Assembly (NCBI GenBank): GCA_030673895.1
Contig: JAUTCR010000033.1
Span: 1 to 64,000 of the forward strand
Length of the DNA: 64,000 nt
Reading direction: 5' to 3'
DNA from: Verrucomicrobiota bacterium JB023
Lineage (GTDB): Bacteria > Verrucomicrobiota > Verrucomicrobiia > Verrucomicrobiales > Akkermansiaceae
In this document: in pieces, positions 7,553 through 30,949 of the stretch
Layout: each line of letters opens with the position of its first letter
Numbering within the stretch: the stretch's first letter is position 1
Notes under the pieces: model-generated
The model's input: only the letters and a program-made list of their open reading frames with translations
Database searches by the model: none
What the model was told of the DNA's origin: nothing
Translations under genes and position numbers: made by a program

Positions 7553-8820
7553 GATGGCAGGTGCGGTAATGGGCCAAGGCGGGAGGCGAAGTCGAACGAG
7601 TCGAAGGATCTGACGACCTCGACGCTTCCGTCATGATGCTGAATCGCGAGGTCGGGATGGGGAACGCCGTTGAACATGGTGGACTTCACGAAGGTGTAGT
7701 GAGCCATGTCATCGAAGACGATGCAGTCCCCGATGGCAAGGGGCCGGGGGAAGCTGTAGTCGCCAATGACATCACCCGCGAGGCAGGACGGACCTCCCAG
7801 TCGATAACGATGGGCCAGCGAATCATCTGCTGGCAGGTAGGATTCCCCGGCGAGGGTGACTGCGGGCCGGGGCGACTCATCTGAAGCGGAAGGGGCCTGA
7901 TCGGCGAGATAAACCTCCGGGCGGTAAGGCATCTCAAGGACGTCGGGCATGTGGCAAGTCGCGGAGACATCGAGAATGGCCTGCTGGACGCCGTCGCTCT
8001 CAAAAAGATCGAGGACGTGCGCGCGGAGGACTCCGGTATGGATGGCCAGAGCCTCTCCGGGCTCCAGCCAAACCCGGATCTGATACGTCGATTGCAGCCT
8101 CTGCAAGAGATTGACCAAGGAGGCCCGATCATAGTCCGGCTTGGTGATCCAATGGCCTCCACCCAGATTGAGGTCGGTGAATTGGGGTGAAGCGAGGAGG
8201 TGGCCGAAGTCTCTATCTACGGCCTTCATCGTCGACTCAAGGTCGCGATAGGGCTGCTCGCAGAGGGTATGAAAGTGAAGGGTGGAGAGACCGCGCATGT
8301 CGGCACCGTCGAGTTGTTCGCTGGTGATGCCCAGTCGCGAGCCGGGCGCGCAGGGGTCGTAGAGAGGGGTCTGCCCGGTGGAGTGGCGAGGATTGATGCG
8401 GATGCCGAAGTGTAAGTCACCGCTGAGATATCGGGGGTGGGCGAGGCAATCCTCGCGGAAGCGCGCCCATTGGGAGAGAGAATTGAAATCGAGGTGGGAG
8501 GATATCTCTAGTAGTTCAGGCAGATGCGCATCAGGATACGCGGGAGAGTAGGTTAGCGTCTCTTTCTGAAAGTGCTCATGGGAGATGCGGGCCTCCCACA
8601 GGCCTGAGGCGCAGCAGCCAGATAGGTAGGGGCGCAGGGAAGGAAAGGTGGGCCAGAGCGAAAAGGCCTTGAGGGCTAGGACGACCCGGGCACCGGAGGC
8701 CTCGGCCACCCCCTGCAAGATGGAGGCATTGCGCTCGAGAGCGGGGAGGGAGACGAGGTATTGGGCCACGTCGAGATTACAGTTCCTTACAAGCTGAGAA
8801 ACAAGTGGTGATTGGGGCAA
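7549..8820 (-). CDS. nspC: Carboxynorspermidine decarboxylase
   Basis: NspC is a PLP enzyme that decarboxylates carboxy(nor)spermidine, the last step of the alternative spermidine pathway. VVLALKAFSLWP carries the PLP lysine, and GLSTLHFHTLCE, LNLGGGHWI and LEPGEALAI are typical. GGPSCLAGDVIGDY near the C-terminus gives the second active-site part with its Cys. The 423-aa reading starts at TTG 8820; family members begin nearer DVAQYLVSLPALERN, so GTG 8769 is a real alternative (406 aa). The partner carboxynorspermidine dehydrogenase is not in the window. Confidence 0.9.
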   Translation of the reverse strand: MPQSPLVSQLVRNCNLDVAQYLVSLPALERNASILQGVAEASGARVVLALKAFSLWPTFPSLRPYLSGCCASGLWEARISHEHFQKETLTYSPAYPDAHLPELLEISSHLDFNSLSQWARFREDCLAHPRYLSGDLHFGIRINPRHSTGQTPLYDPCAPGSRLGITSEQLDGADMRGLSTLHFHTLCEQPYRDLESTMKAVDRDFGHLLASPQFTDLNLGGGHWITKPDYDRASLVNLLQRLQSTYQIRVWLEPGEALAIHTGVLRAHVLDLFESDGVQQAILDVSATCHMPDVLEMPYRPEVYLADQAPSASDESPRPAVTLAGESYLPADDSLAHRYRLGGPSCLAGDVIGDYSFPRPLAIGDCIVFDDMAHYTFVKSTMFNGVPHPDLAIQHHDGSVEVVRSFDSFDFASRLGPLPHLPS

Positions 8821-8841
8821 GTGCCGATTTGCCCCCCTCCC

Positions 8842-9396
8842 TTAATTCAGCCAAGGTTCCGCTGGGCAAAGCGTGAGGAGGTAATGATAGGCCGAGATGG
8901 GGGAGAGCGTCTCCGCCCAAAGCGATTCGTCATGCTCCCGGGCGAGCAATTCCCGGGTGGCTTTGGCCACAAGCCAGCTATTCTGCTCCATCTCGTCATT
9001 AAGCTGGCCGGCGCTCCATCCGGAGTAGCCGACGAAGGCGCGCACCAAGACACCGGGGCGCTTGGTTTGCTCGATCGCTTCTTGCGCGGAAATGCGGACG
9101 GACCAGCCCAGTCGCCCTTCCTTGTCCCACCAGAGGGAGCCGAATGTCAGTTGCTCCTTGGCCACGGGGCCGCCCGCGTGCACCGGGATGCGGGTGAGGG
9201 GGGCAAATTCCTCACCGTTCAAGAAATCACCCACCTTCTTGCCAGTCGGCTGATTCAGGATGAATCCCATCGACCCTTCATCATTGTGATCCGCGAGAAG
9301 GATCACGGACTTGTTGAAGATGCCGTCACGAAGGGAGGGATCCGCCAGCAGCAGAGCCCCAGGTTCGACTGATTGTTGTGAGAGGGAAGGATTCAC
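8842..9396 (-). CDS. YqgE/AlgH family protein (DUF179)
   Basis: The YqgE/AlgH family is a widespread cytosolic family of unclear biochemical role. This member shows the full pattern: PGALLLADPSLRDGIFNKSVILL, then GSMGFILNQP, VHAGGPV, RAFVGYSGWSAGQL and NSWLV. The frame is open to a TTG at 9420, but the GTG at 9396 (MNPSLSQQ...) gives the normal N-terminus and 184 aa. It lies 21 bp upstream of the nspC start on the same strand, so it may lead the yqgE-nspC-DUF58 operon. Confidence 0.88.
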   Translation of the reverse strand: MNPSLSQQSVEPGALLLADPSLRDGIFNKSVILLADHNDEGSMGFILNQPTGKKVGDFLNGEEFAPLTRIPVHAGGPVAKEQLTFGSLWWDKEGRLGWSVRISAQEAIEQTKRPGVLVRAFVGYSGWSAGQLNDEMEQNSWLVAKATRELLAREHDESLWAETLSPISAYHYLLTLCPAEPWLN

Positions 9397-9475
9397 GTTC
9401 CAAATACAACAAGAGAACAAGCTCCGAGGTCAAGCATGGAGGCTCGCGGCGCTCCTGCACCAGGCGAGGGTGGGG

Positions 9476-10306
9476 TTAGAGCGGGCGAGCGTAGGTATTG
9501 CATCGATTGTGCCATCCCTGAAGCCAGCGGCCTTCATTACGCGCTGCCGGAGCATTGCGAACCCGGTTGGCTAGCACTCGCTTGGCGGAGGCGGCAAACT
9601 CGTTCGCCGCAGCCTCACCTGCAGGGACATTCTTCATCCCTTGCAAGACCTGCAGCAGGCCCCAGCCCTGGCCTTGATAGCGTTCGCTGGGGTTGGTTCC
9701 TTCACCTTTGAAGTTGACGTAATCAATCAGGGCATACTGACCCTGCGGCGTGGTGGCCACCTTGTTGTAATTGGCTTGCACGCGCTGGGCATCGGAACCA
9801 GCCGCCCGGAGAATCTTGGGAAGCGAAGCCCGCGACTTCGCAATGATGAAGTCCGTTTGCAGATTCACATTCGAGGCTAGCCAATCGCGGAGGCTACTCA
9901 AAGCGGAGCCATTGAAATCGCGCTGGAAGGACGCCTTGCTCTGCCACGGGCAATCGGCCTGAAGCGCCACGGCGGGAGGATTCGAGCCTTGGCGGCGCGC
10001 GAATTGAACGAATTGCGGAAAGGATTCGGTGAACCGCCCCTCACGTCCGGCAGGATACCAGATGAAGTGACCGATGCCGAGGGAGGGAAAATCTTCTCCA
10101 TCGTTCCACGCCGTCAGCCCGGTCTTGGAGCCACCGGATTCATTTTGCCAGATTTTGCGGCCGATAGCGGCTCGCTGGGAAGCGGTGAGGGTGGATTGCG
10201 TCGTGGCTACGGCGACGGGGGACGATTCTTGGGCGAGCGAGGGCCCCTGTGCCGGGGTGCAGGAGGCGAGAGCGAGGGGGACGAGGAGGAGGGAGCAATA
10301 CTTCAT
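9476..10306 (-). CDS. Lipoprotein with lysozyme-like motif
   Basis: From the ATG at 10306 the 276-aa product opens with a lipoprotein signal (lipobox LASC, about residue 15), so it should be anchored in the envelope. The mature domain has a block NESGG...LTAWNDGEDFPSLGIGHFIWYP. The order Glu, about 10-20 residues, then (S/T)xGIGH is like the Glu...TIGIGH active-site segment of T4-type lysozymes. I do not know a named family for it, and muralytic activity is inference. It is monocistronic; the downstream yqgE start is about 80 bp away. A longer frame to 10369 exists but lacks a sensible signal. Confidence 0.7.
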   Translation of the reverse strand: MKYCSLLLVPLALASCTPAQGPSLAQESSPVAVATTQSTLTASQRAAIGRKIWQNESGGSKTGLTAWNDGEDFPSLGIGHFIWYPAGREGRFTESFPQFVQFARRQGSNPPAVALQADCPWQSKASFQRDFNGSALSSLRDWLASNVNLQTDFIIAKSRASLPKILRAAGSDAQRVQANYNKVATTPQGQYALIDYVNFKGEGTNPSERYQGQGWGLLQVLQGMKNVPAGEAAANEFAASAKRVLANRVRNAPAARNEGRWLQGWHNRCNTYARPL

Positions 10307-10485
10307 GCCAGTGAAGTCAATGCCACCTTGGCGAAGAGTCAAGGAGAGGGAAGGTCTATTCGATGGCACGGGTGGGGCTTTGAAGACTTCCTAAGTCAAA
10401 AAGAAGGTCTGCGCTATTTTTCTAATCTGGTCAGGAGGAATCAGTCAAATTGGGGGGTGATTCGTCGAAATCGCGGTTACTTTTT

Positions 10486-10521
10486 GATTTTCAGGTCGAT
10501 TTAATCCGATTTTCGGTCGAA
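10486..10521 (+). promoter_or_regulatory. Direct repeat upstream of the DUF1549 gene
   Basis: GATTTTCAGGTCGAT (10486-10500) and GATTTTCGGTCGAA (10508-10521) repeat with a 22-bp period, about 50-80 bp before the DUF1549 start. Two helical turns of spacing would suit an activator or sigma-factor site, but no regulator can be named. Confidence 0.3.
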
Positions 10522-10568
10522 AGTGACCTGTTTTCTAAGAAGGCAATTAATCATTCGTAGTTATTTCG

Positions 10569-12485
10569 ATGAAAAACCCCAATGTTCTCGTCACTCTTTT
10601 CTTCACTGCGGTGACCACCGTCTGGGTGGGCGCACAGGGGAGAACGGCTCTCAAGGATGATCCTGAGTATATCAAGAGTGCGGCACTCCGCATTGATAAG
10701 CATGTCGCCGCTCTCTATCGCAGCAAGGAACTCCCGGTGCCCGATGTGGTCGATGATCCCACTTTCCTGAGGCGTAGCTTCCTTGTCGCTGCCGGCCGGA
10801 TACCGAATCTGGAGGAGGCGCGGGCATTTCTCGAGATTGATGATGAGTCCAAGCGCGAAGCTCTCATCTCCTACCTGATGAAGTCCGATGGCTATCGCAG
10901 CCACATGACCAATTGGCTCTTCGATAACATGAGGGTCCAGGAAGAGATGAACCGGGGGAGTGCCTCGCCTTACGTCCAGTTTATCTACGAGGCTGCCCAG
11001 AATAATATGCCTTGGGATGAGCTGGCTCGCAGCCTGGTCGCCTCCAAGGGCTCCATGTGGGAGAAGGGGGAAGGCGCTGTCGGCTACTTCATCCGGGACA
11101 AGGGGATGGAGCTGGACAATCTCTCGAACACGATGCGCATCTTCACCGGCACGCGGATGGAGTGCGCGCAATGCCACGACGATCCCTTCGGCGAATACGA
11201 GCGGATGGATTTCTACCACCTCGCGGCGTTTGTCAGTAACCAGCACGAAATTAACCGGGGCCCTTGGAACAAGGTCTGGCGCGAGGTGCGTGATGCCAAA
11301 AAGGAGCGCGATGACTTCGGTGAATTGGTCCGTTGGCTGGGTGATAACATTCATTACGCCACCTTGGGAGGCGGAGGCCGCGGTCGTATCGAGCTGCCGG
11401 GCGACTATCAGTATCGGGACGGCGATCCCGGGGAAATGATCGGCGGGAAGACGCCCTTCGGCAAACGCATCCGTAGCTCGGATCGCAAGGATTCTGGCTC
11501 TGGCCGGATGGAATTTGCCGAATGGCTCGCGAGTGAAGAGAACCCGCGCTTCAATGCCACCATCGTCAATCGGATGTGGGAGCGGGTCATGGGACGCGCC
11601 ATCTGGGAGCCTGTCGACGAATATGTCGAACCCAAGGACACCATCGCACCGAACCTCGTGGTGGATCTCGTCCGGCTGATGCAGGATCTGGATTATGATC
11701 TGAGGGCCTTCCAGAATGTTCTGCTGCTCACCAAGACCTTTCAATTCGAGGCCAACTCACAAGCCTTTGACGCAGGCATGCCTCAAGCCTTCAACGGCCG
11801 CCAACTTGAGCGGATGACCGCCGAGCAAGTCTGGGATTCGATGGTCACTCTCGTGCGGGGTGATGTCGAGAGTCTGCCCAAGCGCAAGTTCTCCGACACC
11901 ATCTATTATAAGAATCGTCCTGTCCTGCAGGGTGAGATGACCATGGACCAATTGAGCAAGGAGGTCCTCGCCATCAAGAGCCCCGCCGAATACCGCGAAT
12001 ACGTCGAGAATCTGCTTTATCGCTTCAAGCAAGGAGGCGGAGGTAAGAAAAAGAGCAACGACTCCATGATGGGCATGATGAGTTCCGGCGGTCCCCGGGG
12101 ACCGGTGAAGGGCATTGCCCGCGCCTCAGAGCTTCCAAGTCCCGCTCCCGATGGGCACTTCCTTCGCCAATTCGGCCAATCGGACCGTCTCTTGCTCGAC
12201 TCGGCAACCAACGAGGCAAACATGGCTCAGGTGCTCTCGGTCATGAACGGCCATGTGGAGAAGATGGTGGTTAGTAACGATAAGGCGGCCATCTACCAAG
12301 CGCTGGAAGCAGGCAGCAGTGATCGCGACAAAGTTCGCTATCTGTACTACGCCATCCTCGGTCGCCCTCCCGGCGACGAGGAAATGAAAATGCTCATGCG
12401 CGATGTCATCGACGGCAGCCGCGATAGCTATCGCAACCTGGCCTCGGCCCTCTTGGCTACCCACGAATTCCTCTTCATCCAATAA
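10569..12485 (+). CDS. DUF1549/DUF1553 domain protein
   Basis: The protein (638 aa) has a signal peptide, an N-terminal DUF1549 region (about 35-240, ending in the CAQCHDDPFG segment with a haem-like CxxCH) and a C-terminal DUF1553 region (about 320-638, including FNATIVNRMWERVMGR and ATHEFLFIQ). These paired domains are typical of Planctomycetes and Verrucomicrobia and usually sit beside a DUF1501 protein, as here (24-bp gap). The biochemical role is not established. Unlike many homologues it has no N-terminal PSCyt1 cytochrome module. A run of Gly and Lys around 485-495 separates linker and domain. Confidence 0.9.
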   Translation: MKNPNVLVTLFFTAVTTVWVGAQGRTALKDDPEYIKSAALRIDKHVAALYRSKELPVPDVVDDPTFLRRSFLVAAGRIPNLEEARAFLEIDDESKREALISYLMKSDGYRSHMTNWLFDNMRVQEEMNRGSASPYVQFIYEAAQNNMPWDELARSLVASKGSMWEKGEGAVGYFIRDKGMELDNLSNTMRIFTGTRMECAQCHDDPFGEYERMDFYHLAAFVSNQHEINRGPWNKVWREVRDAKKERDDFGELVRWLGDNIHYATLGGGGRGRIELPGDYQYRDGDPGEMIGGKTPFGKRIRSSDRKDSGSGRMEFAEWLASEENPRFNATIVNRMWERVMGRAIWEPVDEYVEPKDTIAPNLVVDLVRLMQDLDYDLRAFQNVLLLTKTFQFEANSQAFDAGMPQAFNGRQLERMTAEQVWDSMVTLVRGDVESLPKRKFSDTIYYKNRPVLQGEMTMDQLSKEVLAIKSPAEYREYVENLLYRFKQGGGGKKKSNDSMMGMMSSGGPRGPVKGIARASELPSPAPDGHFLRQFGQSDRLLLDSATNEANMAQVLSVMNGHVEKMVVSNDKAAIYQALEAGSSDRDKVRYLYYAILGRPPGDEEMKMLMRDVIDGSRDSYRNLASALLATHEFLFIQ

Positions 12486-13983: not shown

Positions 13984-14058
13984 TCCGGCATAGCTCAGCG
14001 GTAGAGCGGGTGGCTGTTAACCACTAGGTCGTAGGTTCGAATCCTACTGCCGGAGCCA
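13984..14058 (+). tRNA. tRNA-Asn (GTT)
   Basis: The gene folds into a full cloverleaf: acceptor stem TCCGGCA/TGCCGGA, D-arm AGCTCAGCGGTAGAGC, anticodon loop CTGTTAA (anticodon GTT, Asn), T-arm with GGTTCGAATCC, discriminator G and an encoded CCA. Its 3' 31 bp form the left attachment site of the island. The same 31 bp recur at 21722-21752, so the tRNA was rebuilt on integration and should be functional. Confidence 0.95.
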
Positions 14059-15287
14059 TTTTCCCTTTTTTGTCCAGTTGCGACACAGTGCGACTGAAAG
14101 TGACTAAGGCCCTCATCTTCAGAGGGTTTTTTTGTGTCCGGTAGGTCCGGTGATGCGACACGCTGCGACTCGGATTGTCCACCGCCGCCTAAATCGCGTG
14201 ACCCTATGCGTGACCCTAATTTTGGACTCGGCATGTTGGCGATGGCTTCGGCAACAGGCAGGATTGTCGCATCGAGGTAGTTTTTCGATGAAAGGCGAGG
14301 ATCGCTATGACGCATGGCGTACATGGTTACCGACTGGTTTGCGCCTGAAGACTGAAGATGACTCCCGAAAGCATGTCGAAGTGCGTGAAAGTCCGCCTGT
14401 CGCCCCTGAGAGTCCTTGTAAGGGATTCTGGCCTTGAGGAGGTCCTTTTGGATGGCTCTCGAACCGCGAGGGGGATAATCGACCACATGGACATCAGAAG
14501 CCGGACAACTCGCCGCTTTCTTCTCTAAGAGTGTGACCAGATAAGGATGGAGGGGAACCGCTTGGTCCTGTTTGTTTTTCGAGCTATCCGCACGGACCAC
14601 GAGAAAAGGGGTATCTGCCCTTAATCGTATGTCGTCCCATACGAGTCTTTGAATCTCTCCAAGCCGGAGCCCGGAATAGAATGCAATGGCGTAGGCTAGT
14701 GCGTGCTCGTCAGACGAGACGCTAATGAGCCTTTCAAACTCCTCCAGAGTGAGGGCTCGCCTTTTCCTCCGCTCCTTGCCGCGGGTTTCACTTTTGCGAA
14801 GCTTAGCCAGAGGGTTGTTTTCAATGCGCTCTTGGTCGACCAGCCAGTTCAAGAATGAGTTCCAAGCATTCAGATACTCATTGAGGGTTTTCGGAGCCTT
14901 GGAACCGTTTCTAGACCTCCAAACTTGAAAGTCTTTTGGAGCGATGTCGTCGATGAACACCCACGAGCAATCCTCCGAGACGATGCGGAGGGCTCGCTGA
15001 GTGTTTTCGACATACTTGGAACTTCTTCCGCAGTGGTGCAGGTCATCGATGTAAAGCGCGATACAGCTTTTGATGGTTTCTGCACTCTTGGGTTGAACGA
15101 TTTCTAATCCGGCGCGTTTTCGTTGTTCCAACTTCACGATTTCGGCCAGCTTCTTTTCTGCAGCCTGTTTGTCTGAAACACCTAGCGCAATTTGAGTGAC
15201 CTTCGCATCGCCGGGCAATCGATAACGGCCGCTGTAGGTTCTATCTCGTTTGCCGCCTCTTCTTCGTTTGAAGACATTCTGTTGCAT
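13995..15287 (-). CDS. int: Tyrosine recombinase/integrase of the island
   Basis: The 430-aa site-specific recombinase drives integration into and excision from tRNA-Asn. It has an N-terminal arm-binding part (MQQNVFKRRRGGKRDRTYSG), a SAM-like core-binding domain (about 70-170) and the catalytic domain with FYSGLRLGEI (Arg), HALRHAFGSHL (HxxR), MRHSD (His) and NYLD (Tyr nucleophile). The last residues (GSGSRIRTYDLVVNSHPLYR) are read from the antisense strand of the tRNA across attL, so they belong to the host site. On the excised circle the frame would instead run into the tail at 21551-21721. It starts 11 bp after the excisionase-like gene. Confidence 0.93.
   Translation of the reverse strand: MQQNVFKRRRGGKRDRTYSGRYRLPGDAKVTQIALGVSDKQAAEKKLAEIVKLEQRKRAGLEIVQPKSAETIKSCIALYIDDLHHCGRSSKYVENTQRALRIVSEDCSWVFIDDIAPKDFQVWRSRNGSKAPKTLNEYLNAWNSFLNWLVDQERIENNPLAKLRKSETRGKERRKRRALTLEEFERLISVSSDEHALAYAIAFYSGLRLGEIQRLVWDDIRLRADTPFLVVRADSSKNKQDQAVPLHPYLVTLLEKKAASCPASDVHVVDYPPRGSRAIQKDLLKARIPYKDSQGRQADFHALRHAFGSHLQSSGANQSVTMYAMRHSDPRLSSKNYLDATILPVAEAIANMPSPKLGSRIGSRDLGGGGQSESQRVASPDLPDTKKPSEDEGLSHFQSHCVATGQKRENGSGSRIRTYDLVVNSHPLYR
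14028..14058 (+). repeat. attL core (31 bp)
   Basis: The segment from GTCGTAGG to GGAGCCA, covering the T-arm and 3' acceptor end of tRNA-Asn, is identical to 21722-21752. The flanking bases differ on both sides, which sets the length at 31 bp. It also lies inside the integrase reading frame on the other strand. Confidence 0.93.
14079..14217. repeat. Repeat cluster next to attL, possible integrase arm sites
   Basis: TGCGACACAGTGCGACT (14079-14095) recurs as TGCGACACGCTGCGACT (14154-14170), each a pair of TGCGAC hexamers 10 bp apart. GTGACCCTATGCGTGACCCT (14198-14217) recurs with one mismatch near attR (21670-21689). All are within int coding DNA. Their placement on both sides of the circular attP core suggests arm-type recombinase sites. 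Confidence 0.45.
14110..14133 (+). terminator. Plus-strand terminator supplied by the island for tRNA-Asn
   Basis: CCCTC, a 7-nt loop and GAGGG are followed by seven T, about 50 bp downstream of the tRNA and inside the antisense int gene. It would end the tRNA transcript that the island separates from its native terminator at 21758. Confidence 0.55.
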
Positions 15288-15298
15288 GCTCTCAAGGA

Positions 15299-15496
15299 TT
15301 AGGGATTGGCGTGGAGTTCGATGAAGGATTCGACTTCTGATTCACGGAACAGAACCCGCCCTCTAATTTTTATCCTCTCTAGCTCATTGGAGGCGACGAG
15401 TCGCTCGACAGTCCGGCGGCTGACTCCTAGTCGGGCTGCGACTTCTTGAATCCCGAGAAGGCGGCTCGTTTCGGTAGGGGGATTAGTTCTCATCAT
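15299..15496 (-). CDS. Excisionase-like small HTH protein
   Basis: The 65-aa protein is little more than a MerR/AlpA-type (helix-turn-helix 17) DNA-binding domain: LLGIQEVAARLGVSRRTVERLV (helices), a short wing and LFRESEVESFIELH. Such proteins next to integrases usually act as recombination directionality factors. The ATG at 15496 or 15493 overlaps the 3' end of the upstream regulator, and int begins 11 bp downstream, so the three are translationally linked. Confidence 0.8.
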   Translation of the reverse strand: MMRTNPPTETSRLLGIQEVAARLGVSRRTVERLVASNELERIKIRGRVLFRESEVESFIELHANP

Positions 15497-16028
15497 CTTG
15501 GTCAAGTTCGTCAGGGGCGGGTTCATCCTGTTCCCTCAAGTGTGGGCGAAGATAGCATTCAAGCGCTCCCCTCCCCTCTTTGGGAAGATTCTCCCAAATC
15601 TCAGTAAGGTTCTCCAAATCAGCTTGATGGTCGGCATCGCCCTCGCAGGAAGGCTGGAAGGTTGAACGAATGTACTCGAGCTTCGACAGCTGGTCATTTT
15701 GGTCTGCATACCCGAACATGAGCGCTTCAGGAGACGTCGAAACAGCAAGAGCAACGCGGCGTATCATTGGAAGAATCGCTTCAGCAAATCTTGAGAGGTG
15801 AAGCTCGGGCGAGTTGAGAGCTCTAGAAATCGTTGCCGGGCTGAGATCAACTTTGTGGTTCGTCTTCAGCCAATTTGAGATTTCTCGCAGCGTCATCCCT
15901 TCAGACGCCTTTTGAAGATACGGGAAGAGCTGAGTCTGAAGCGGCAATCTCTCGAATGATGAACCGTCGGACTCGGTGACAAGAGCAGCTCCAATATTCG
16001 ATATGGAAACGGAATTGTTTGTGTTCAT
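15483..16028 (-). CDS. HTH-type regulator of the island
   Basis: The 181-aa protein is not from a family I can name. A helix-turn-helix is visible at about 45-75 (MTLREISNWLKTNHKVDLSPATISRALN, of which the second half is the recognition helix region), followed by a helical middle and an acidic C-terminus (DEPAPDELDQDDEN). It is the first gene of the HTH-xis-int block and has four evenly spaced TGAAA sites directly upstream, so it probably controls the operon and itself. Confidence 0.72.
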   Translation of the reverse strand: MNTNNSVSISNIGAALVTESDGSSFERLPLQTQLFPYLQKASEGMTLREISNWLKTNHKVDLSPATISRALNSPELHLSRFAEAILPMIRRVALAVSTSPEALMFGYADQNDQLSKLEYIRSTFQPSCEGDADHQADLENLTEIWENLPKEGRGALECYLRPHLREQDEPAPDELDQDDEN

Positions 16029-16036
16029 TTCGCATG

Positions 16037-16073
16037 TGAAAATACTTTGAAACGGAAATGAAAGAAAGTGAAA
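16037..16073 (-). promoter_or_regulatory. Four phased TGAAA/TTTCA iterons upstream of the HTH regulator
   Basis: On the plus strand TGAAA starts at 16037, 16048, 16059 and 16069, spacing 11, 11 and 10 bp. One helical turn between copies puts all four on the same face of the DNA. The array begins 9 bp before the ATG at 16028, so it covers the ribosome-binding and promoter region and looks like an operator, or possibly replication iterons. Confidence 0.55.
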
Positions 16074-16189
16074 AATGGCGGAAAGGGTCGTTCAGAGGCA
16101 CAGTGAGGCCATTGCCACGGCTCTACCTGGGGCTACGCGCCCCAGACCCGCGCAAGCTGACGCCAGCTTGACCCCGCCCGCTGTCGCTT

Positions 16190-16727
16190 TCGCTGACGCG
16201 TCATTCGGGGGTTCATGACCTTGACGATGGCGAGGATGATGGATGCAGAGTGAAATACTGCCCGGCGCCTTAGTCCGAGGGGCTAGCGGGACTCTTAAGC
16301 ATGCCTTCGTAGATTGAGCTCTAATGTCTAGGTCCATGTCGTACCAATCTTAGTCGGCGGCGATCTTGATGACGCGGGCGAGGTTGGGGGGGAGATACTT
16401 TTCTGGGTCTTGCGGAAGATGATGCCGATCGGGCCGGGCTGCTTGCCGAGGTCCTAGAGGGTGTGAGGGTAGTGGACTTCGAGGTCGTCGCTGCGCCGGC
16501 TAACCAACTCAGGCTATTGAAATTCCTTGGGTATAGGGTTGCCCTTCCCGCCGTTGCGATTGGGCGAAGGGGGGATAGAAGCCCCGCGCGGTCATCTCGT
16601 CGAAGAGCTTGAGGAAGAGCTGTTAGCTGATCTGCTCGACGTAGTCGCCGCTGAAACTGACCCCCGCGTTCTTGAGGACGTGGGCGTAGTTCAAGACTTT
16701 GGAGGCGATGGCTGAAGTGTCGCTCAT
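16190..16727 (-). pseudogene. Decayed type I restriction methylase gene (hsdM 5' part)
   Basis: Conceptual translation from ATG 16727 gives MSDTSAIASKVLNYAHVLK, SGDYVEQIS, FLKLFDEMT, then LEVHYPHTL and LGKQPGPIGIIFRKTQ, and in shifted frames LARVIKIAAD, DLDIRAQ, GAGQYFT and AIVKVMNPR. These are the successive N-terminal HsdM blocks up to just before the SAM-binding motif. There are at least four in-frame stops and two frameshifts, and the methylase core and hsdS are gone. The ATG overlaps the stop of the GIY-YIG gene (ATGA), a trace of former translational coupling. Confidence 0.85.
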
Positions 16728-17521
16728 AGTTTCACCTGTCTGTCTAGGTATCCTTCCGACCGCATTTTCTCAAAGTAGTCAAGTGGATCAGGTGTCTTCT
16801 TGATTGCTTCCTTAAAGGGACAGCCTCCAAGCACAAGCAGTCTGACCCCATGCAAGAGTTCCTCGTAGCCCTGAAACATTGCATTAGCAAAAAGATCCCG
16901 AAGGCGAACATGAGCAGCGAGAGGATCCATCCAGTCATGGCCTGCGATGAACGATTTCAATAGGTAGGTAGCCGTTCTGAGCTGCTCTTCTGTGAATCGA
17001 ATGTTTGCCCCGTTGATCTTGTTCCATTGAGGGATTGCGCCTGTGCAAACCTCGAAAGCTTCAATGAGCGCGCCCTCATAGGTTCTGATCTCTTGGTCAA
17101 CGTCGGCGTTCAGAAGTCGCTTAGCCTCTTCCCGATCCACGAGTTCATAGCGCTTCCTAAGAGATTCAAGCTTCTCTGGATTAGCCTTCTCCCAACGCGA
17201 ACAAGCGGCCTGTGAAAGGGTGGATTGCACCAGAACTGAGTATCCGAGGAGAGCGTTAGTCTTGAAGAAGTCTTCAATTTTGGAGCGCTTGCAGCAAGTC
17301 GGAGGGCAATCCACAAGATCATTGTGTTGGCGGAATCGGGTCGCAAGATCAACGGCTAGCCCGATGTAGAGGATCTCACGAGTCGACGGATCCCAGAAGC
17401 AATATACTCCCGATGATGACCACCCGTAGTTGTCTTTCGCTGATGCGACTTCCTCCAGTGCGTCCGCTAGGAATTCTGCTTTCCCCGCGGAGTAAGTATC
17501 GACAATAACAGTTGCGAGCAT
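16724..17521 (-). CDS. GIY-YIG nuclease-domain protein, third gene of the island cassette
   Basis: The product (265 aa from ATG 17521) carries a GIY-YIG endonuclease domain: SSGVYCFW (GVY at 38-40), ILYIGLAVDLATRFRQHN (YIG 52-54, catalytic Arg62), then YEGALIEAF (candidate metal-binding Glu149) and PQWNKING (Asn167). The C-terminal 90 residues match nothing I know. A TTG start at 17548 would overlap the preceding gene by 8 bp and add 9 residues; either way the genes are coupled. Its stop overlaps the start of the hsdM remnant. The reading frame is fully intact, unlike the restriction genes around it. Confidence 0.8.
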   Translation of the reverse strand: MLATVIVDTYSAGKAEFLADALEEVASAKDNYGWSSSGVYCFWDPSTREILYIGLAVDLATRFRQHNDLVDCPPTCCKRSKIEDFFKTNALLGYSVLVQSTLSQAACSRWEKANPEKLESLRKRYELVDREEAKRLLNADVDQEIRTYEGALIEAFEVCTGAIPQWNKINGANIRFTEEQLRTATYLLKSFIAGHDWMDPLAAHVRLRDLFANAMFQGYEELLHGVRLLVLGGCPFKEAIKKTPDPLDYFEKMRSEGYLDRQVKL

Positions 17522-17540
17522 CTTGCGTAGATTGAAACGA

Positions 17541-18635
17541 TCAGGCAATTGGCTGTAAAGGGATTAGCAACTGGTCTGTAAGCTTACCAAACTCAGGTGG
17601 GAGCTTCGCTGCTTTTACGAGGTAACTGGCAATCAGGAGGGAAAAACGCGCTGCCTGAGGATGCTCTGAACAGAGAGTCTTTGCGAACGCCTGGTCTGCG
17701 TCGTCCACAAAAAAGGACAGGCCTACTTCCTTCAGAATGGAAGGACTATATTGAACCTCTACTGGTGCATCCAGCAGTTGACGGAAGAGTTTCAGGAAAG
17801 CCTCCCACTCTGGGAGGGAAAGGTTCGTCGCGCCGCCTTCTGGGCTTTTGGCCAGTATGCGTTGGTAAAGTTCGTTTCGGTGCTCATAGGCTTCACGCCC
17901 GCCGTAGAGGAGCACCAAGAGAGCATCAGAAAGATCCTCCTGCACATCTGGATGAAAGTGCGCCTTAAAAACCTGGCTGATAATCAGCGCAAGAGATCTT
18001 CCAAAGAGGGCTGCAAAGTCGAAAAACAACGCGACGTGAGCCTTCTTATCAGGATCGAACTCCGGGTGCAATTTTCGTATTTCCGCAAGAGTTTTCCTGC
18101 ACGAATCTGCGGCTGATTCAGCCAACCAATACTCGGATCGAAGAAACGCCAAACCAAGCTGAAGTTTCTCAAATTTTCCGACTGCTGCGAAGTAGTTCTC
18201 CCATATGTCGATCGAGGCGATGTGCCCCAGGGGTCTATCGTAGTCTGGCGACGTTGAACGGGCGTAAAGCTCGAAATCGTCTTCTGTAAGCAACGTCACC
18301 CCTAGTTCATCCGCGAATAGACGATGATCGAGTTCAATCTTCTTCTTCTTGAGGATGCAAAATCCGTGTGCCCCATTGATCTTCTTAAGAAGGCCGGAAA
18401 GCCACATCGCTCGGTTTACCGCTGACTCTTTAGCCTTGGTCTTGCAGTCGAATACCAGAGACCGATATCCTGTAAGAAGATCAGGGATTTCCGCTAGGAC
18501 GTCGAGATCTGTCACAAGAGGGGCATTGGCGTCTACCGCTCGTACGGGCTCAATATCGACTTCCAGTTGCGGCAGCCATCGATTCGCGACCGCGAGTCGA
18601 AGAGCTTTAGATTTTTGATCACGATCTTTCATCAT
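17541..18635 (-). CDS. PD-(D/E)XK-like protein, second gene of the island cassette
   Basis: The 364-aa protein has a probable restriction-endonuclease-fold N-terminus: LPQLEVDIEPV (acidic helix end, Glu25), VTDLDVLAEI (Asp45) and, after 16 residues, LVFDCKTK (Asp63-Cys-Lys65), the (D/E)xK pattern. The remaining 270 residues are mostly helical with LFFDFAALFGRSLALIISQ and resemble no family I recognise. ATG 18635 lies 4 bp after the stop of the 432-aa gene. The nuclease call rests on motif spacing alone. Confidence 0.65.
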   Translation of the reverse strand: MMKDRDQKSKALRLAVANRWLPQLEVDIEPVRAVDANAPLVTDLDVLAEIPDLLTGYRSLVFDCKTKAKESAVNRAMWLSGLLKKINGAHGFCILKKKKIELDHRLFADELGVTLLTEDDFELYARSTSPDYDRPLGHIASIDIWENYFAAVGKFEKLQLGLAFLRSEYWLAESAADSCRKTLAEIRKLHPEFDPDKKAHVALFFDFAALFGRSLALIISQVFKAHFHPDVQEDLSDALLVLLYGGREAYEHRNELYQRILAKSPEGGATNLSLPEWEAFLKLFRQLLDAPVEVQYSPSILKEVGLSFFVDDADQAFAKTLCSEHPQAARFSLLIASYLVKAAKLPPEFGKLTDQLLIPLQPIA

Positions 18636-18639
18636 AGCC

Positions 18640-19938
18640 TTATTTCAGAAAAAGGTTTTCCATCTCTAGCTGCTGATCTTGGGAGAGCTCAACTTTCTCT
18701 CGCTTCACGAGTTCGCCAGAAGCCACTAAGGATTCGATGAAGCTATGGGGCTTCTGAAGTGCTTTTCGAGCTTCATCGTCGACTTCCGCTCCCGAAGAGG
18801 CGCCCGATATGACTAGCTTGTAAGCCATATCCAGAGCCTCTCGATTCTCGGGAGTGTCAATGATTCTTAGTTCACTTCTTCCGTATCCAACAGGAATTAG
18901 CTGGGCAACTCGCATGTGAACGAGTTGCTTGTATTGCTGGCTGGCTTCGCTTGTTGATTTCCCGAGCTTGAGATTGTTTCGGAGTTTGTTGATTAGCGCA
19001 GAGGGATAACGAATCGCATATTTTTGTGGTAAGAATTGCCCTTGCCGGACTGCGGCAACGATGGCCATGGCCTTCTCGTATATGTCCCTTTTGGTGGGTG
19101 AAAGAGCTGCTCCTGCTGGGGTTGGAGTAAACAGGAAGAAGTTCTCTCCGGCATGATCTGTGGAAATACTTGGAGGCTTCACTGCACCATCCTGCGCGAG
19201 ACGCTTTAAAAGCTGGATCTCGCTTGGTGATAGCTTGATGCCCCCTACTTCTTGGTTTTTCTCGATTATAGAAAGAGGGACACCCTGCATCGCTTGGATC
19301 GCTTTCATGAGGTGCTGAATCTCACCCGATCCCTTTCCAGCAACCATATCCGCAAAGATTTCTGCGTTCTCCGAGAAATAGGTTGGGCTCAACGCAATGT
19401 CGCGCCCTCGGGCGCGGTGAACACGAAGATATGATCCTTCTTTGCCAAGGGTAAGCGCCCGCTCAAACAGTTTATGCTCGGCTCCTATTTTTGTCTCTAG
19501 GGCATCGACTTTCTCCGGTGATTTTGACAACCGACAAAGCATGTCTAGTGCGAGCTGTTCAGACTCATTGAAACCTGTCTCAGCCGCGAAAATACCGAGA
19601 GTCGAATACATCGCCTCATAATAAGGAACGTCCGGCACAACGGCCTTTATCGTTCTACCTTCGCTCTGAATCTTCACGAATTCCACTTCCGCGAGAATCT
19701 CGACGATTGACTTAACAGCAGGCCCCGGAATGCCCAGATAGTGACTCGCGACCATCCGAAGGGTTGCAAAATTGACAGTGGGCAAACCCCTGATGTGAAG
19801 GGCAAGGCGGACAGCCATGCCAACGTCTCGCAGGTTGTCAAAATCAGGAACTTCTTTGAATCCCAACCCCGTTTGGATCTCGTGGCATCTTGCAGAAAGC
19901 TCTTCGGGTGGTCGGGTAGTGTATTTAAATTCAGACAT
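18640..19938 (-). CDS. Unknown 432-aa protein, first gene of the island cassette
   Basis: I do not recognise this protein. It is soluble and mostly helical. Segments such as GLPTVNFATLRMVASHYLGIPGPAVKSIVEILAEVEFV (about 51-88) and LSPSEIQLLKRLAQDG look like winged-helix units, each followed by a short beta wing, so DNA binding is plausible. There is no ATPase or nuclease motif. It begins 5 bp after the decayed hsdR piece and ends 4 bp before the PD-(D/E)XK gene, making a tight three-gene unit with it and the GIY-YIG gene. It could be the targeting or sensor subunit. Confidence 0.6.
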   Translation of the reverse strand: MSEFKYTTRPPEELSARCHEIQTGLGFKEVPDFDNLRDVGMAVRLALHIRGLPTVNFATLRMVASHYLGIPGPAVKSIVEILAEVEFVKIQSEGRTIKAVVPDVPYYEAMYSTLGIFAAETGFNESEQLALDMLCRLSKSPEKVDALETKIGAEHKLFERALTLGKEGSYLRVHRARGRDIALSPTYFSENAEIFADMVAGKGSGEIQHLMKAIQAMQGVPLSIIEKNQEVGGIKLSPSEIQLLKRLAQDGAVKPPSISTDHAGENFFLFTPTPAGAALSPTKRDIYEKAMAIVAAVRQGQFLPQKYAIRYPSALINKLRNNLKLGKSTSEASQQYKQLVHMRVAQLIPVGYGRSELRIIDTPENREALDMAYKLVISGASSGAEVDDEARKALQKPHSFIESLVASGELVKREKVELSQDQQLEMENLFLK

Positions 19939-19943
19939 CGGTT

Positions 19944-20252
19944 TTATTCAATGAGCGTTCCTGCGAATGCCGAAGCAAGGGTAGATTGGCGGAGGCGGCT
20001 GGCGCGGGTGATCTTGCGGTCGAGTCCGGCTTCGAGGTGATCGATGGAGGTGGTGTGGGCTTTGACGACATCGATGCGCTTGCCCTCGACGAAGAGGGCG
20101 TAGTCGGCGGGACCCCCGAGCGATTGCTGCTCTCGGACGGCGACATCCGGTGAGGCGGAAAGATTGAGCTCGTTTTTGTTCTGAACGCTCCGGCGCGCCG
20201 ATGCATGTTGGGCGTCGATGTTGATGCGGGCGAATTCTTCGAGTTTGGACAA
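19944..20252 (-). pseudogene. Fragment of type I restriction endonuclease gene (hsdR N-terminus)
   Basis: The 102-codon piece matches the HsdR N-terminal nuclease start: EFARINIDAQ, VQNKNELNLSASPDVAVRE, GGPADYALFVEGKRIDVV. Where HsdR has the catalytic E-A-K triad end, this reads K-A-H, so the nuclease residues are lost. The helicase part is missing, and the last 20 codons are unrelated. It runs up to 5 bp before the 432-aa gene, so it marks the other edge of the cassette. Confidence 0.75.
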
Positions 20253-20318
20253 GGAAAAGGGGAATCGTTGTTGCGAATTTAGTTAGAGATTGTTTCGGTA
20301 GAAGTGAAGGCAATATTC

Positions 20319-20328
20319 TCGCGAGAGA
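20319..20328. other. Palindrome TCTCGCGAGA between hsdR fragment and rep
   Basis: A perfect 10-bp palindrome sits in the 170-bp gap after rep. A nick site for the HUH Rep could lie in this gap, but nothing beyond the palindrome supports it. Confidence 0.25.
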
Positions 20329-20421
20329 ACATTCGGCTTAGTGACCACCGCGAATTCCTGCGGAGTCTGCCTAAGAGGAGGGCGGATTGCTCACTCTTGA
20401 AAGAATGTGTTCCAAATGCTT

Positions 20422-21558
20422 TCAACGAATCGAAAGGGGCAAGATCAAACTTTCTATGGGGCGAGGGTGAACTGGTGAATGGGGGAAGACGATTTCAATA
20501 TTTGCGAGCAGCTGCTTTGGAAGCTCGATGTTCAAGAAGATATCTCCCTGTTTGGGGAGCTTTGGTCGTGCCCAAGAGAGTTTCTTAGCTCGAGCAACCT
20601 TTTTCATGAGGGACACGCCAAGCTTGGCCTTTTCGGGGGTCGGTGCACCGTGGCCTTGGCAGAGGTTTTCCCATGTCCAACTCGGCTCCGATTCTCCAAA
20701 GATTTTCCTCATGACCTTTTTGCGATGGGCAATCTCGGCCTTTCGTTGGCGGAGCTTACGGGCGATGCGATGAAGCTTCACGGCTTCTTGCTGAGGAAGT
20801 TCGGTCACGAGATGCTTGCCATACGGAATGGACTTGCGATTGACATGGCCCCACCAACGGCCCGGATGAAAGGCGGGGTCGCTTTCGTCCGCTTTGCCGA
20901 GATACTTGGCGAAGTAAGCGGCGAAGTGTTTGCGAGGCCTCTGCCAGTTCTTCGAGTGCATATGCCAGCGCAAGTGCTTTGAATCGCGGTTCCCGATGAG
21001 CTTGTTCCATTCGAGCATTAGCCACATGCGGAAATCGGTTTCCTCGTTTTCTCCGATGCCATCGAGGTAGATTAGAAGGTGAGCGTGAAGAGCCCCCCGT
21101 TTCTGAGGTTCCTCTTTCCAATGGGCTCCAATGTGGGACCAACGCTTGCACCATCGACGCTTGAGGGTTTTGAAGGCTTCTTTGAATGCCTCAGGGCCGG
21201 GGTCGTCACCGGGGAGGGTGAGAGCACAGGTCACGGCTGGAGTCTCATAGCGGACTTTAGCAATGTCCTGCAGGAGTCTACGCCGGGACTTTGGTGAGAA
21301 GGTGGTAATCGTTCCTCGGGTTGGGGCGCCTTGGCCTGCCGGTGGAAGAGGTCGTCCCGGGGCGGGGTCAATGATTTTGACGGCATGAGCTCCCTCCCAA
21401 AGATGGACAATGCCTGTTTTCTCTGGGGTGGAGTTATGGCCTAAAGACAAGCAGGCCATCCGCCGCGATGCGGAAGCGCTACCGCGCTCTTCCGCACTCG
21501 CGGCGGGTGGGGCTGATTCTCCCGGGAGGGGTGACGGCTTGCATGCCTGCCTACTCAT
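20422..21558 (-). CDS. rep: Rolling-circle replication initiator (HUH endonuclease)
   Basis: The 378-aa Rep nicks and religates one DNA strand to start rolling-circle replication. Motif order fits the plasmid/phage Rep class: VTCALTLPG (motif 1 strand), QKRGALHAHLLIYL with the metal-binding His158-Ala-His160, and HFAAYFAKYLGK with Tyr215 and Tyr219 (Y..KY..K). A basic C-terminal half (RKLRQRKAEIAHRKK) follows. A strong Shine-Dalgarno (AAGGAGG) lies 6 bp before the ATG at 21558, within the stranded integrase tail. In the integrated state there is only about 160 bp of tail and attR upstream, so expression should depend on excision. Confidence 0.85.
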   Translation of the reverse strand: MSRQACKPSPLPGESAPPAASAEERGSASASRRMACLSLGHNSTPEKTGIVHLWEGAHAVKIIDPAPGRPLPPAGQGAPTRGTITTFSPKSRRRLLQDIAKVRYETPAVTCALTLPGDDPGPEAFKEAFKTLKRRWCKRWSHIGAHWKEEPQKRGALHAHLLIYLDGIGENEETDFRMWLMLEWNKLIGNRDSKHLRWHMHSKNWQRPRKHFAAYFAKYLGKADESDPAFHPGRWWGHVNRKSIPYGKHLVTELPQQEAVKLHRIARKLRQRKAEIAHRKKVMRKIFGESEPSWTWENLCQGHGAPTPEKAKLGVSLMKKVARAKKLSWARPKLPKQGDIFLNIELPKQLLANIEIVFPHSPVHPRPIESLILPLSIR

Positions 21559-21721
21559 CGTTGCCTCCTTCCTTGCTCGCAGAGTAGGCAGAGCGGATGA
21601 TCGCCATCACGGCAGCGCGAAGAGGAGGAGCCAGCCCAGGCCAACTTCGGGCGATTTCCTCCAGCTCAGGTGACCCTATGTGTGACCCTTGCTCTGCAAG
21701 TGGCTGAGCATCTATGGGGGA
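21551..21721 (-). other. Stranded C-terminal coding tail of the integrase
   Basis: Reading the integrase frame through the att core and on leftwards from attR gives an open frame of 56 codons (SPIDAQPLAEQGSHIGSPEL, then EEIARSWPGLAPPLRAAVMA and IIRSAYSASKEGGNDE), ending in TAG at 21553-21551. The ARSWPGLAPPLRAAV pattern looks like the C-terminal helix often found after planctomycete/verrucomicrobial integrases. It has no start of its own. The TAG overlaps the rep start as ATGAGTAG. Confidence 0.75.
21670..21689. repeat. Right-end copy of the GTGACCCT tandem repeat
   Basis: GTGACCCTATGTGTGACCCT differs by one base from 14198-14217 and lies 32 bp inside attR, matching a P-arm site on the circular form. 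Confidence 0.45.
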
Positions 21722-21752
21722 GTCGTAGGTTCGAATCCTACTGCCGGAGCCA
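21722..21752 (+). repeat. attR core (31 bp)
   Basis: A perfect copy of the tRNA-Asn 3' end (T-arm, acceptor 3' strand, CCA) with no upstream tRNA sequence. It marks the right end of the island. Confidence 0.93.
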
Positions 21753-30610: not shown

Positions 30611-30949
30611 TTAGGCGATGACAGCTTCTTCCTTGTCGCTGTCGTCCTTCTTGCACTTGTCGCAACCGGCGATGACAGCTTCTTCCTTGTCGCTATCGTC
30701 TTTCTTGCACTTGTCGCAACCAGCGATGACGGCTTCTTCCTTGTCGCAGTCCTTCTTCTTACACTTGTCGCAGTCACCGGCGATGATTGCTTCTTCCTTG
30801 TCGCTATCATCTTTCTTGCACTTGTCGCAACCGGCGATGATCGCTTCCTCTTTGTCGCATTCTTTCTTCTTGCACTTATCGCAGTCACCGGCGAGTGCGA
30901 AGCCAGCAAAGAACAGAGAACCCAAGAGGGTGGTCAGGATTGATTTCAT
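30611..30949 (-). CDS. Small secreted Cys-rich tandem-repeat protein
   Basis: From ATG 30949 the 112-aa product is a signal peptide (MKSILTTLLGSLFFAGFALA) followed by five repeats of 18-19 residues and nothing else. Two repeat types alternate: GDCDKCKKKECDKEEAIIA with three Cys, and GCDKCKKDDSDKEEAIIA with two. Every repeat has a CxxC, and Lys and Asp/Glu fill the rest. Metal binding (zinc or copper) or redox buffering in the periplasm is plausible. It has its own terminator and about 200 bp of upstream DNA shared with the divergent DUF1232 gene. I know no named family. Confidence 0.75.
   Translation of the reverse strand: MKSILTTLLGSLFFAGFALAGDCDKCKKKECDKEEAIIAGCDKCKKDDSDKEEAIIAGDCDKCKKKDCDKEEAVIAGCDKCKKDDSDKEEAVIAGCDKCKKDDSDKEEAVIA
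30614..30889 (-). repeat. Five tandem 54-57-bp coding repeats
   Basis: The repeats of the Cys-rich protein are also near-identical in DNA (for example CTTCTTCCTTGTCGCT recurring on the plus strand), so copy number may vary between strains by slippage or unequal exchange. Confidence 0.85.

Follow-up and report, generated by a model that had tools for sequence, protein, structure and literature searches.

If a type I restriction operon has decayed, what could be the reason for the survival, between its remnants, of three intact and tightly packed genes? The question is raised by a stretch of 64,000 nucleotides (nt), the whole of which is called the window in what follows, corresponding to positions 1–64,000 of contig JAUTCR010000033.1 of Verrucomicrobiota bacterium JB023 (assembly GCA_030673895.1). 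The three genes, termed here A, B and C, are the following:

18640–19938, minus strand: gene A, 432 amino acids (aa), a probable tandem winged-helix protein (putative DNA reader) according to an AlphaFold2 (AF2) model and to Foldseek and VIA comparisons; its open reading frame (ORF) is intact
17541–18635, minus strand: gene B, 364 aa, a predicted PD-(D/E)XK nuclease with an all-helical C-terminal part, starting 4 nt after A
16724–17521, minus strand: gene C, a predicted GIY-YIG nuclease, most likely with an ATG start at 17521; the ORF list began at TTG 17548

A first-pass annotation had presented them as one candidate undescribed cassette for defence or DNA targeting. The three intact minus-strand genes are indeed in the ORF list, and the suggested role finds support as far as A and B are concerned; C, on the other hand, is not part of the conserved unit. 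A–B is a real and widespread gene pair that is conserved as such, and the reading that we favor with somewhat better than even confidence, judging from sequences and structural models, is that it represents an undescribed two-subunit, restriction-like defence nuclease in which A would read the DNA and B would cut it.

The A–B pair across bacteria

Homologues were collected from plasmids, viral contigs, one scan of a genome collection (27 loci) and a sample of the phylum. In profile scans, each of the 36 loci besides the window has B immediately behind A, and the same holds for L046; B accompanies A in 38 of the 39 A-bearing loci examined, which belong to several phyla. Taking the longest-ORF starts, the two genes are separated by −31 to +31 nt in 35 loci. 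When the search was begun from B, all seven plasmid records having this gene proved to have an adjoining A, as do G066 and G465. The two proteins also diverge in parallel, their pairwise divergences being correlated (r = 0.95, 28 loci), a result obtained in 0 of 2000 permutations. Several of the loci nearly duplicate one another (A is 90–100% identical in L011/L012/L031, L028/L044 and L032/L043, while L025/L026 and L005/L041 look alike), so that the independent cases of A–B are fewer than those counted. In a Jeotgalibacillus record (NZ_PREZ01000009.1; L025 and L026) A–B occurs in two 21-kb stretches ~83 kb apart that display the same called genes and coordinates, either a recent duplication or an assembly artefact.

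As judged from record titles, the hosts of A–B belong to Bacillota, Actinomycetota, Verrucomicrobia, Armatimonadota, Chloroflexota, Acidobacteriota and Pseudomonadota (phylum names in part from general knowledge). Window A is 61–68% identical to the A of metagenome-assembled genomes (MAGs) of Betaproteobacteria, Verrucomicrobia subdivision 3, Fimbriimonadaceae and Syntrophorhabdus but just 41% identical to that of L002, a genome from its own order, a pattern that indicates horizontal transfer. The pair is carried on plasmids, and two related phage contigs have it next to an integrase-like gene. In Roseomonas DNA (L005, 3299–10381; L041, 5299–12381) A–B directly follows and overlaps, in an operon-like manner, a MobF relaxase gene.

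The pair has a second, distant branch. The B profile recognized 5 of 398 Pseudomonadota genomes, two of which (the seed genome included) have a full-length B of the kind considered so far (type 1) and three a distant relative, B′ (type 2), preceded in each case by an A-like gene of 416–425 aa (A′). Comparison of the type 1 and type 2 profiles yielded E 1e-8 over 241 columns for B and E 6e-10 over 330 columns for A. With the B′ profile, in turn, type 2 was recovered from 5 of 396 Pseudomonadota genomes, and a type 1 B was matched as well (E 3e-5); A′ adjoins B′ in all five, three of which had fed the A′ profile. In the five type 2 proteins D44, D62, K64 and E13/E14 are invariant, and D42, D44, D62, K64, R74 and G80 occupy places matching the motif of type 1 B; type 2 keeps both the gene order and the motif of type 1. 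Of 5426 complete E. coli genomes, 22 contain a DNA match (65–66% identity, 38% of the query). The two E. coli loci that were opened (L053 and L054, the latter from strain W2-5; 8294–10598 in each) both hold A′B′, given as a pair of hypothetical proteins in the annotation, with integrase and relaxase genes nearby; the surroundings are hxs genes in one case and an ABC-three-component system in the other. In a Mesorhizobium plasmid the type 2 pair is near an Eco57I-type restriction–modification (R-M) methylase. Only one stray match (LmuC, E 0.038) was obtained when three type 2 pairs were compared with PADLOC, and none for A, B, C or B′ among 50,697 phage records. No description of the A–B pair was encountered in the titles and abstract openings of the literature searched, and the E. 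coli A′B′ may be among the 94 E. coli units, several of them with PD-(D/E)XK domains, that DefensePredictor tested (PMC13092281).

Does C belong to the same unit? In the window genome it is a neat member of the local operon: A, B and C are contiguous and on the same strand, their GC content at third codon positions (GC3) is 0.50, 0.52 and 0.53, respectively, and C keeps an ATGA coupling to hsdM (see below), all of which would suit a single three-gene system endowed with two nucleases. However, profile scans detected C in none of the 36 related A–B loci, 30 of which hold more than 1 kb after B (in the other six the contig stops 136–619 nt past B, where a complete C would not fit), and neither A nor B in any of the seven loci carrying relatives of C; among 288 genomes of the phylum, C itself was found only in its own. 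By this co-occurrence A–B–C is rejected as a conserved system and kept as a local operon, only A–B being conserved, and the three-gene system appears to us very improbable. The trio proposed in the first-pass annotation thus did not recur in any of the loci scanned; the nuclease residues attributed to B and C are there.

In the case of C these residues are the GVY and YIG elements with R62, E149 and N167, a numbering that fits the ATG at 17521 and not the TTG at 17548; numbered from the latter, Y49, Y61-I62-G63, R71, E158 and N176 are invariant in three of three sequences, so that the GIY-YIG motif is accompanied by its R, E and N. The match of C to the Pfam GIY-YIG model (PF01541, E 0.0018) is weak and below cut-off, and among its relatives L013 and L014 are likewise below the cut-off and L007 and L010 above it. 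Relatives of C open with MYGTII or MFGTII, matching the start at ATG 17521, and therefore B and C probably do not overlap; the overlap is probably an artefact of the TTG start. C is probably an added, separate nuclease standing outside the conserved pair. Its relatives (L007, L010, L013–L017) form a small family of lone GIY-YIG proteins on plasmids and viral contigs, with the start M[FY]GTI conserved in the copies examined; the one in L017 is near an integrase-like gene.

Predicted folds and proposed function of A and B

In the AF2 model of B (pLDDT 92, pTM 0.92), residues ~3–144 were aligned by VIA with the PD-(D/E)XK domains of AF1548 (Z 11.8, 116 residues, rmsd 3.2), VC1899 (11.3), Can2 (10.8) and Card1 (8), and we are confident that the modelled B has the PD-(D/E)XK fold. 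Its nuclease domain aligns with CARF-linked nucleases and restriction enzymes with Z 8–11.8, and XisH-type nucleases are also among the matches (Z 7); the VIA list hardly probes the helical half of the protein. In 29 of 29 homologues K8, E25, D43, D45, D63, C64, K65, R75, W78, G81, H104, R180, H200, G245, G246 and Y338 are invariant. These residues include the D45/D63-C-K65 signature by which B had been recognized in the first place and, with E25, D45, D63 and K65, the PD-(D/E)XK catalytic pattern. In the window pairs analyzed for dN/dS, pN is 0.21–0.36 and synonymous sites are saturated (pS 0.80–0.91), so that only long-term purifying selection can be stated.

Neither window A nor window B has a match in Pfam, PADLOC, PHROGs or NCBIfam, and Pfam scans of 28 A and 29 B proteins returned only chance-level matches; by sequence, none of the solved structures matched B, and A gave chance-level matches only. 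The AF2 model of A (pLDDT 80, pTM 0.68) found its best Foldseek matches in the RPC62 chains of RNA polymerase III (E 8e-5, TM-score 0.17, rmsd ~19), and VIA distinguished separate winged-helix-like units at residues ~29–124 and 127–276, aligned to domains of the ArsR, MarR and Cdt1 types with Z 5–6.9, which is within the common background. From its model, A looks like a tandem winged-helix protein, in keeping with what had initially been guessed for the 432-aa product.

The pairing and co-divergence of the two proteins, the motif and predicted fold of B, the apparent winged helices of A, the type 2 branch, the HsdS and PADLOC context, the mobile setting and the precedent of TgvAB (the last three discussed below) are the reasons for the defence-nuclease reading. 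Gene pairing and order, motif conservation, the predicted fold of B and the anatomy of operon and island are direct observations. The mechanism that we envisage would be as follows. A, as a chain of winged-helix domains, would bind incoming DNA and read some sequence, modification or exposed structure in it, the N-terminal PD-(D/E)XK domain of B would cut this DNA, and the helical C-terminal half of B would probably dock on A or form a dimer. The pair would be spread by integrative elements, plasmids and prophages that carry it along, and would at times settle inside a type I restriction operon or close to one. We infer, in other words, that A and B bind each other as partners, that DNA is read and cleaved by them and that the purpose is defence.

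Some of the same evidence could be accommodated by an abortive-infection or toxin–antitoxin-like mechanism, in which A keeps B repressed or restrained until infection frees the latter to degrade the DNA of the host, or all DNA. The position of the putative DNA-binding protein as the first of the two genes, the resemblance of the nuclease domain of B to the effectors Can2, Card1 and Cdn1 and the carriage of the pair by plasmids and phage contigs are compatible with this mechanism. An antitoxin role of A would also square with the lone A of L052 and with the fact that every full-length type 1 B seen was accompanied by A. Yet both proteins are large (~430 and ~365 aa) and tightly co-diverging, and no ligand-sensing domain was detected by Pfam, so that we deem this explanation unlikely.

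The neighbourhood of A–B adds to the case for a defence nuclease. A specificity subunit (HsdS, PF01420) is encoded less than 10 kb from A–B in L018, L020, L030 and L043, i.e., in 4 of the 35 genomes or records searched. In the 26 collection-scan genomes, with ~30 HsdS genes (merged by hand from the matches), the four cases observed compare with 0.15 expected (Poisson P 2e-5); L018 and L020 share the layout of the window and, if counted once, leave three cases (P 5e-4). Among the first 25 PADLOC models of each tally, those recognized in flanking proteins include type I R-M, pAgo, IetA, mad2, PD-Lambda-2, HEC-06, LmuB and PDC-M51, the neighbours being mostly drawn from 263 genes within ~5.5 kb of the pair (142 upstream and 121 downstream) and in few cases from further away. 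Ten neighbours were examined with Pfam and correspond to ApeA (L032), an integrase (L023), AAA-M41 (L039), UvrB, an ADP-ribosylglycohydrolase and DUF6538, four being matchless.

Several observations weigh against a defence nuclease. The pair is rare, being present in 2 of the 387 genomes of the phylum sample, JB023 included (single-sequence query), and in 1 of 299 genomes of a Bacillota sample, the seed itself. A Streptomycetaceae plasmid (L052, 4899–6173) has a relative of A (24% identical) without B, the sole lone A met, and in L042 (9878–11264) A is split into two overlapping frames with B open. In structural terms, the Foldseek E-values for B are weak (0.016 at best) and no single match of A rises above background (VIA Z at most 6.9). 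As to the context, the A of L032 is 96% identical to that of L043 and L032 does not have the HsdS neighbour of L043; several neighbours are housekeeping or mobility genes (e.g., UvrB by L034 and ADP-ribosylglycohydrolase by L019), and in the plasmid records L003 and L005 nothing annotated as restriction or phage defence is to be seen up to ~8 kb from the pair. The PADLOC tallies, finally, concern 160 hand-picked neighbour proteins with no matched control and left out most genes of plasmids and phage contigs (excluded were short or doubtful ORFs, all downstream genes of L003–L006 and L008, all of L011 and the loci L009, L012 and L026), and some of the models (kinases, AAA, methylases) may catch ordinary proteins too.

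What is at stake is a pair that is kept across very distant bacteria and yet has no match, in its window form, in any of the four collections named above. It offers a testable catalytic motif, and its E. coli relatives bring it within reach of standard laboratory tests. If the pair does defend its host by DNA cleavage unaided by a methylase or an NTPase, the means by which the host itself escapes becomes an answerable question.

The tRNA-Asn element and the restriction operon around the pair

A, B and C are carried by a 7.7-kb integrative element (14028–21752) inserted at a tRNA-Asn gene. The tRNA-borne element surmised from the outset is confirmed by the perfect 31-bp att repeats that bound it, and its other features are:

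14028–14058, plus strand: att repeat 1, inside the 3′ end of tRNA-Asn (tRNA 13984–14058)
21722–21752, plus strand: att repeat 2, 100% identical to the first 31-bp copy
13995–15287, minus strand: tyrosine integrase of the element (PF00589, E 3e-17)
15299–15526, minus strand: excisionase-like HTH_17 protein (PF12728, E 1e-13)
15483–16028, minus strand: 181-aa protein, a possible HTH regulator (weak match to PF13565, E 0.029, below cut-off)
16249–16727, minus strand: decayed N-terminal part of hsdM, with in-frame stops (tblastn with HsdM of L020 and L018, E 1e-20 and 2e-15)
19944–20252, minus strand: 102-aa fusion remnant, an N-terminal fragment of HsdR fused to a C-terminal fragment of HsdS (PADLOC Specificity_I E 1.7e-6; HsdR of L018 E 5e-4; HsdS of L020 E 1e-3)
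20422–21558, minus strand: rolling-circle-type replication protein (Rep) of the element (PF23343, REP_ORF2-G2P, E 1.8e-9)

With an integrase, an excisionase-like protein and a Rep of the REP_ORF2-G2P family, this element is a small carrier. A foreign origin of the island is likely, because GC3 is 0.50–0.53 in A, B and C and 0.72–0.74 in two neighbouring chromosomal genes. Elsewhere in the window, a 111-nt repeat is present in four copies spaced by 54–57 nt (30611–30886).

The decayed hsdR and hsdM flanks described in the first-pass annotation are real: the HsdR/HsdS fusion ORF stands directly before A and the stop-bearing start of hsdM directly after C, the stop of C overlapping the hsdM ATG as ATGA. 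The order found in L018, a betaproteobacterial MAG whose A is 68% identical, is HsdR, HsdS, A, B, HsdM, without C, and here it is the stop of B that overlaps the hsdM start in the same way. (In the relatives, HsdS was called by Pfam search, and similarity clusters, PADLOC tallies and coordinates served to assign HsdR and HsdM.) In light of the flanking remnants, the ATGA coupling and the matching order of L018, the window most likely once held hsdR-hsdS-A-B-C-hsdM. Here the pair would have been installed between hsdS and hsdM, remaining intact while hsdR, hsdS and hsdM decayed, and C, probably a separate nuclease, would have been added to the same operon slot; as it stands, the three hsd genes are broken and the frames of A, B and C are still open.

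Could A–B instead be a housekeeping device of its carriers, helping plasmids and integrative elements to be excised, transferred or replicated? The MobF relaxase gene adjoining the pair in L005 and in its look-alike L041, the integrases or integrase-like genes near it in L011, L012, L023 and L054 and the XisH-type nucleases in the fold list of B (Z 7) would agree with such a function. On the other hand, the carriers are unrelated and several have recombination or relaxase genes of their own, the pair is also found by type I R-M operons, and the type 2 pair has different neighbours in each of the two E. coli elements opened; this function is, in our opinion, decidedly unlikely.

Comparison with known systems

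A sub-case of the defence-nuclease reading is type IV restriction, whereby the winged helices of A would recognize phage DNA by a modified base and leave the cutting to B, the pair being a two-gene analogue of DpnI-type enzymes. Type I enzymes usually methylate adenine and the pair of L018 shares its operon with hsdR-hsdS-hsdM, so that a general N6-methyladenine (6mA) trigger would conflict with the host. However, the A–B unit is itself devoid of a methyltransferase, winged-helix domains are described as 6mA readers joined to PD-(D/E)XK or GIY-YIG nucleases (PMC11037411), and TgvAB, itself embedded in a type I operon, is modification-dependent (PMC11411939). On balance, we look upon type IV restriction as conceivable, if rather doubtful.

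As regards B, the fold of its nuclease domain is the same as that of Can2/Card1/Cdn1, VC1899 and AF1548 (Z 8–11.8 over ~110 residues). In Can2, Card1 and Cdn1 the aligned domain lies at the C-terminus, after a CARF domain, whereas in B it is N-terminal and followed by helices. RPC62 has a tandem winged-helix architecture, and given the TM-score and rmsd reported above its likeness to A is limited to the series of domains and implies no link with the polymerase. As for C, its match to the single-gene PADLOC candidate PDC-S14 is weak (E 0.009; E 9e-4 for its relative L010) and concerns only ~40 residues of the GIY-YIG part.

A bolder proposal, to which we assign a low probability, is that A–B founds a widespread immune family of two-protein systems, as yet without a name and comprising two branches or more, in which an RPC62-like scaffold of several winged helices would detect a state of the invader's DNA, for instance an opened or modified duplex, and license a PD-(D/E)XK cutter with no need for an NTPase, a methyltransferase, a guide or a second messenger; in the window the same scaffold may also serve the GIY-YIG cutter.

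To which of the known systems, then, does A–B come closest? None of the families of PADLOC-DB 2.0.0, which covers known and candidate defence systems, is matched by window A and B. These proteins do not match any R-M model either, and in L018 the R, S and M genes are separate neighbours of the pair. The type IV systems of the GmrSD/TgvAB kind contain the DUF262 and DUF1524 domains, neither of which was found by Pfam in window A or B, the 29 B and 28 A homologues giving only chance-level matches. TgvAB, a two-protein type IV restriction system, is encoded by two genes embedded in a type I operon and occurs predominantly outside such operons (PMC11411939). Its likeness to window A–B consists in the two genes lodged in a type I R-M operon; unlike TgvAB, which belongs to the GmrSD family, A and B have no Pfam match and B is a predicted PD-(D/E)XK protein. 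DpnI, FcyTI and the winged-helix–GIY-YIG fusions, on the other hand, combine a winged-helix reader with a PD-(D/E)XK or GIY-YIG nuclease, as would be the case here, and these fusions read 6mA (PMC11037411). They are, however, single chains, whereas A and B have a gene each, in the window as in the 36 related loci, a probable tandem winged-helix protein being paired with a B that has a large helical part. By the tests made here A and B thus belong to neither the TgvAB/GmrSD nor the winged-helix–nuclease fusion family, the former being the nearest precedent for the anatomy of the pair and the latter the nearest precedent for its parts.

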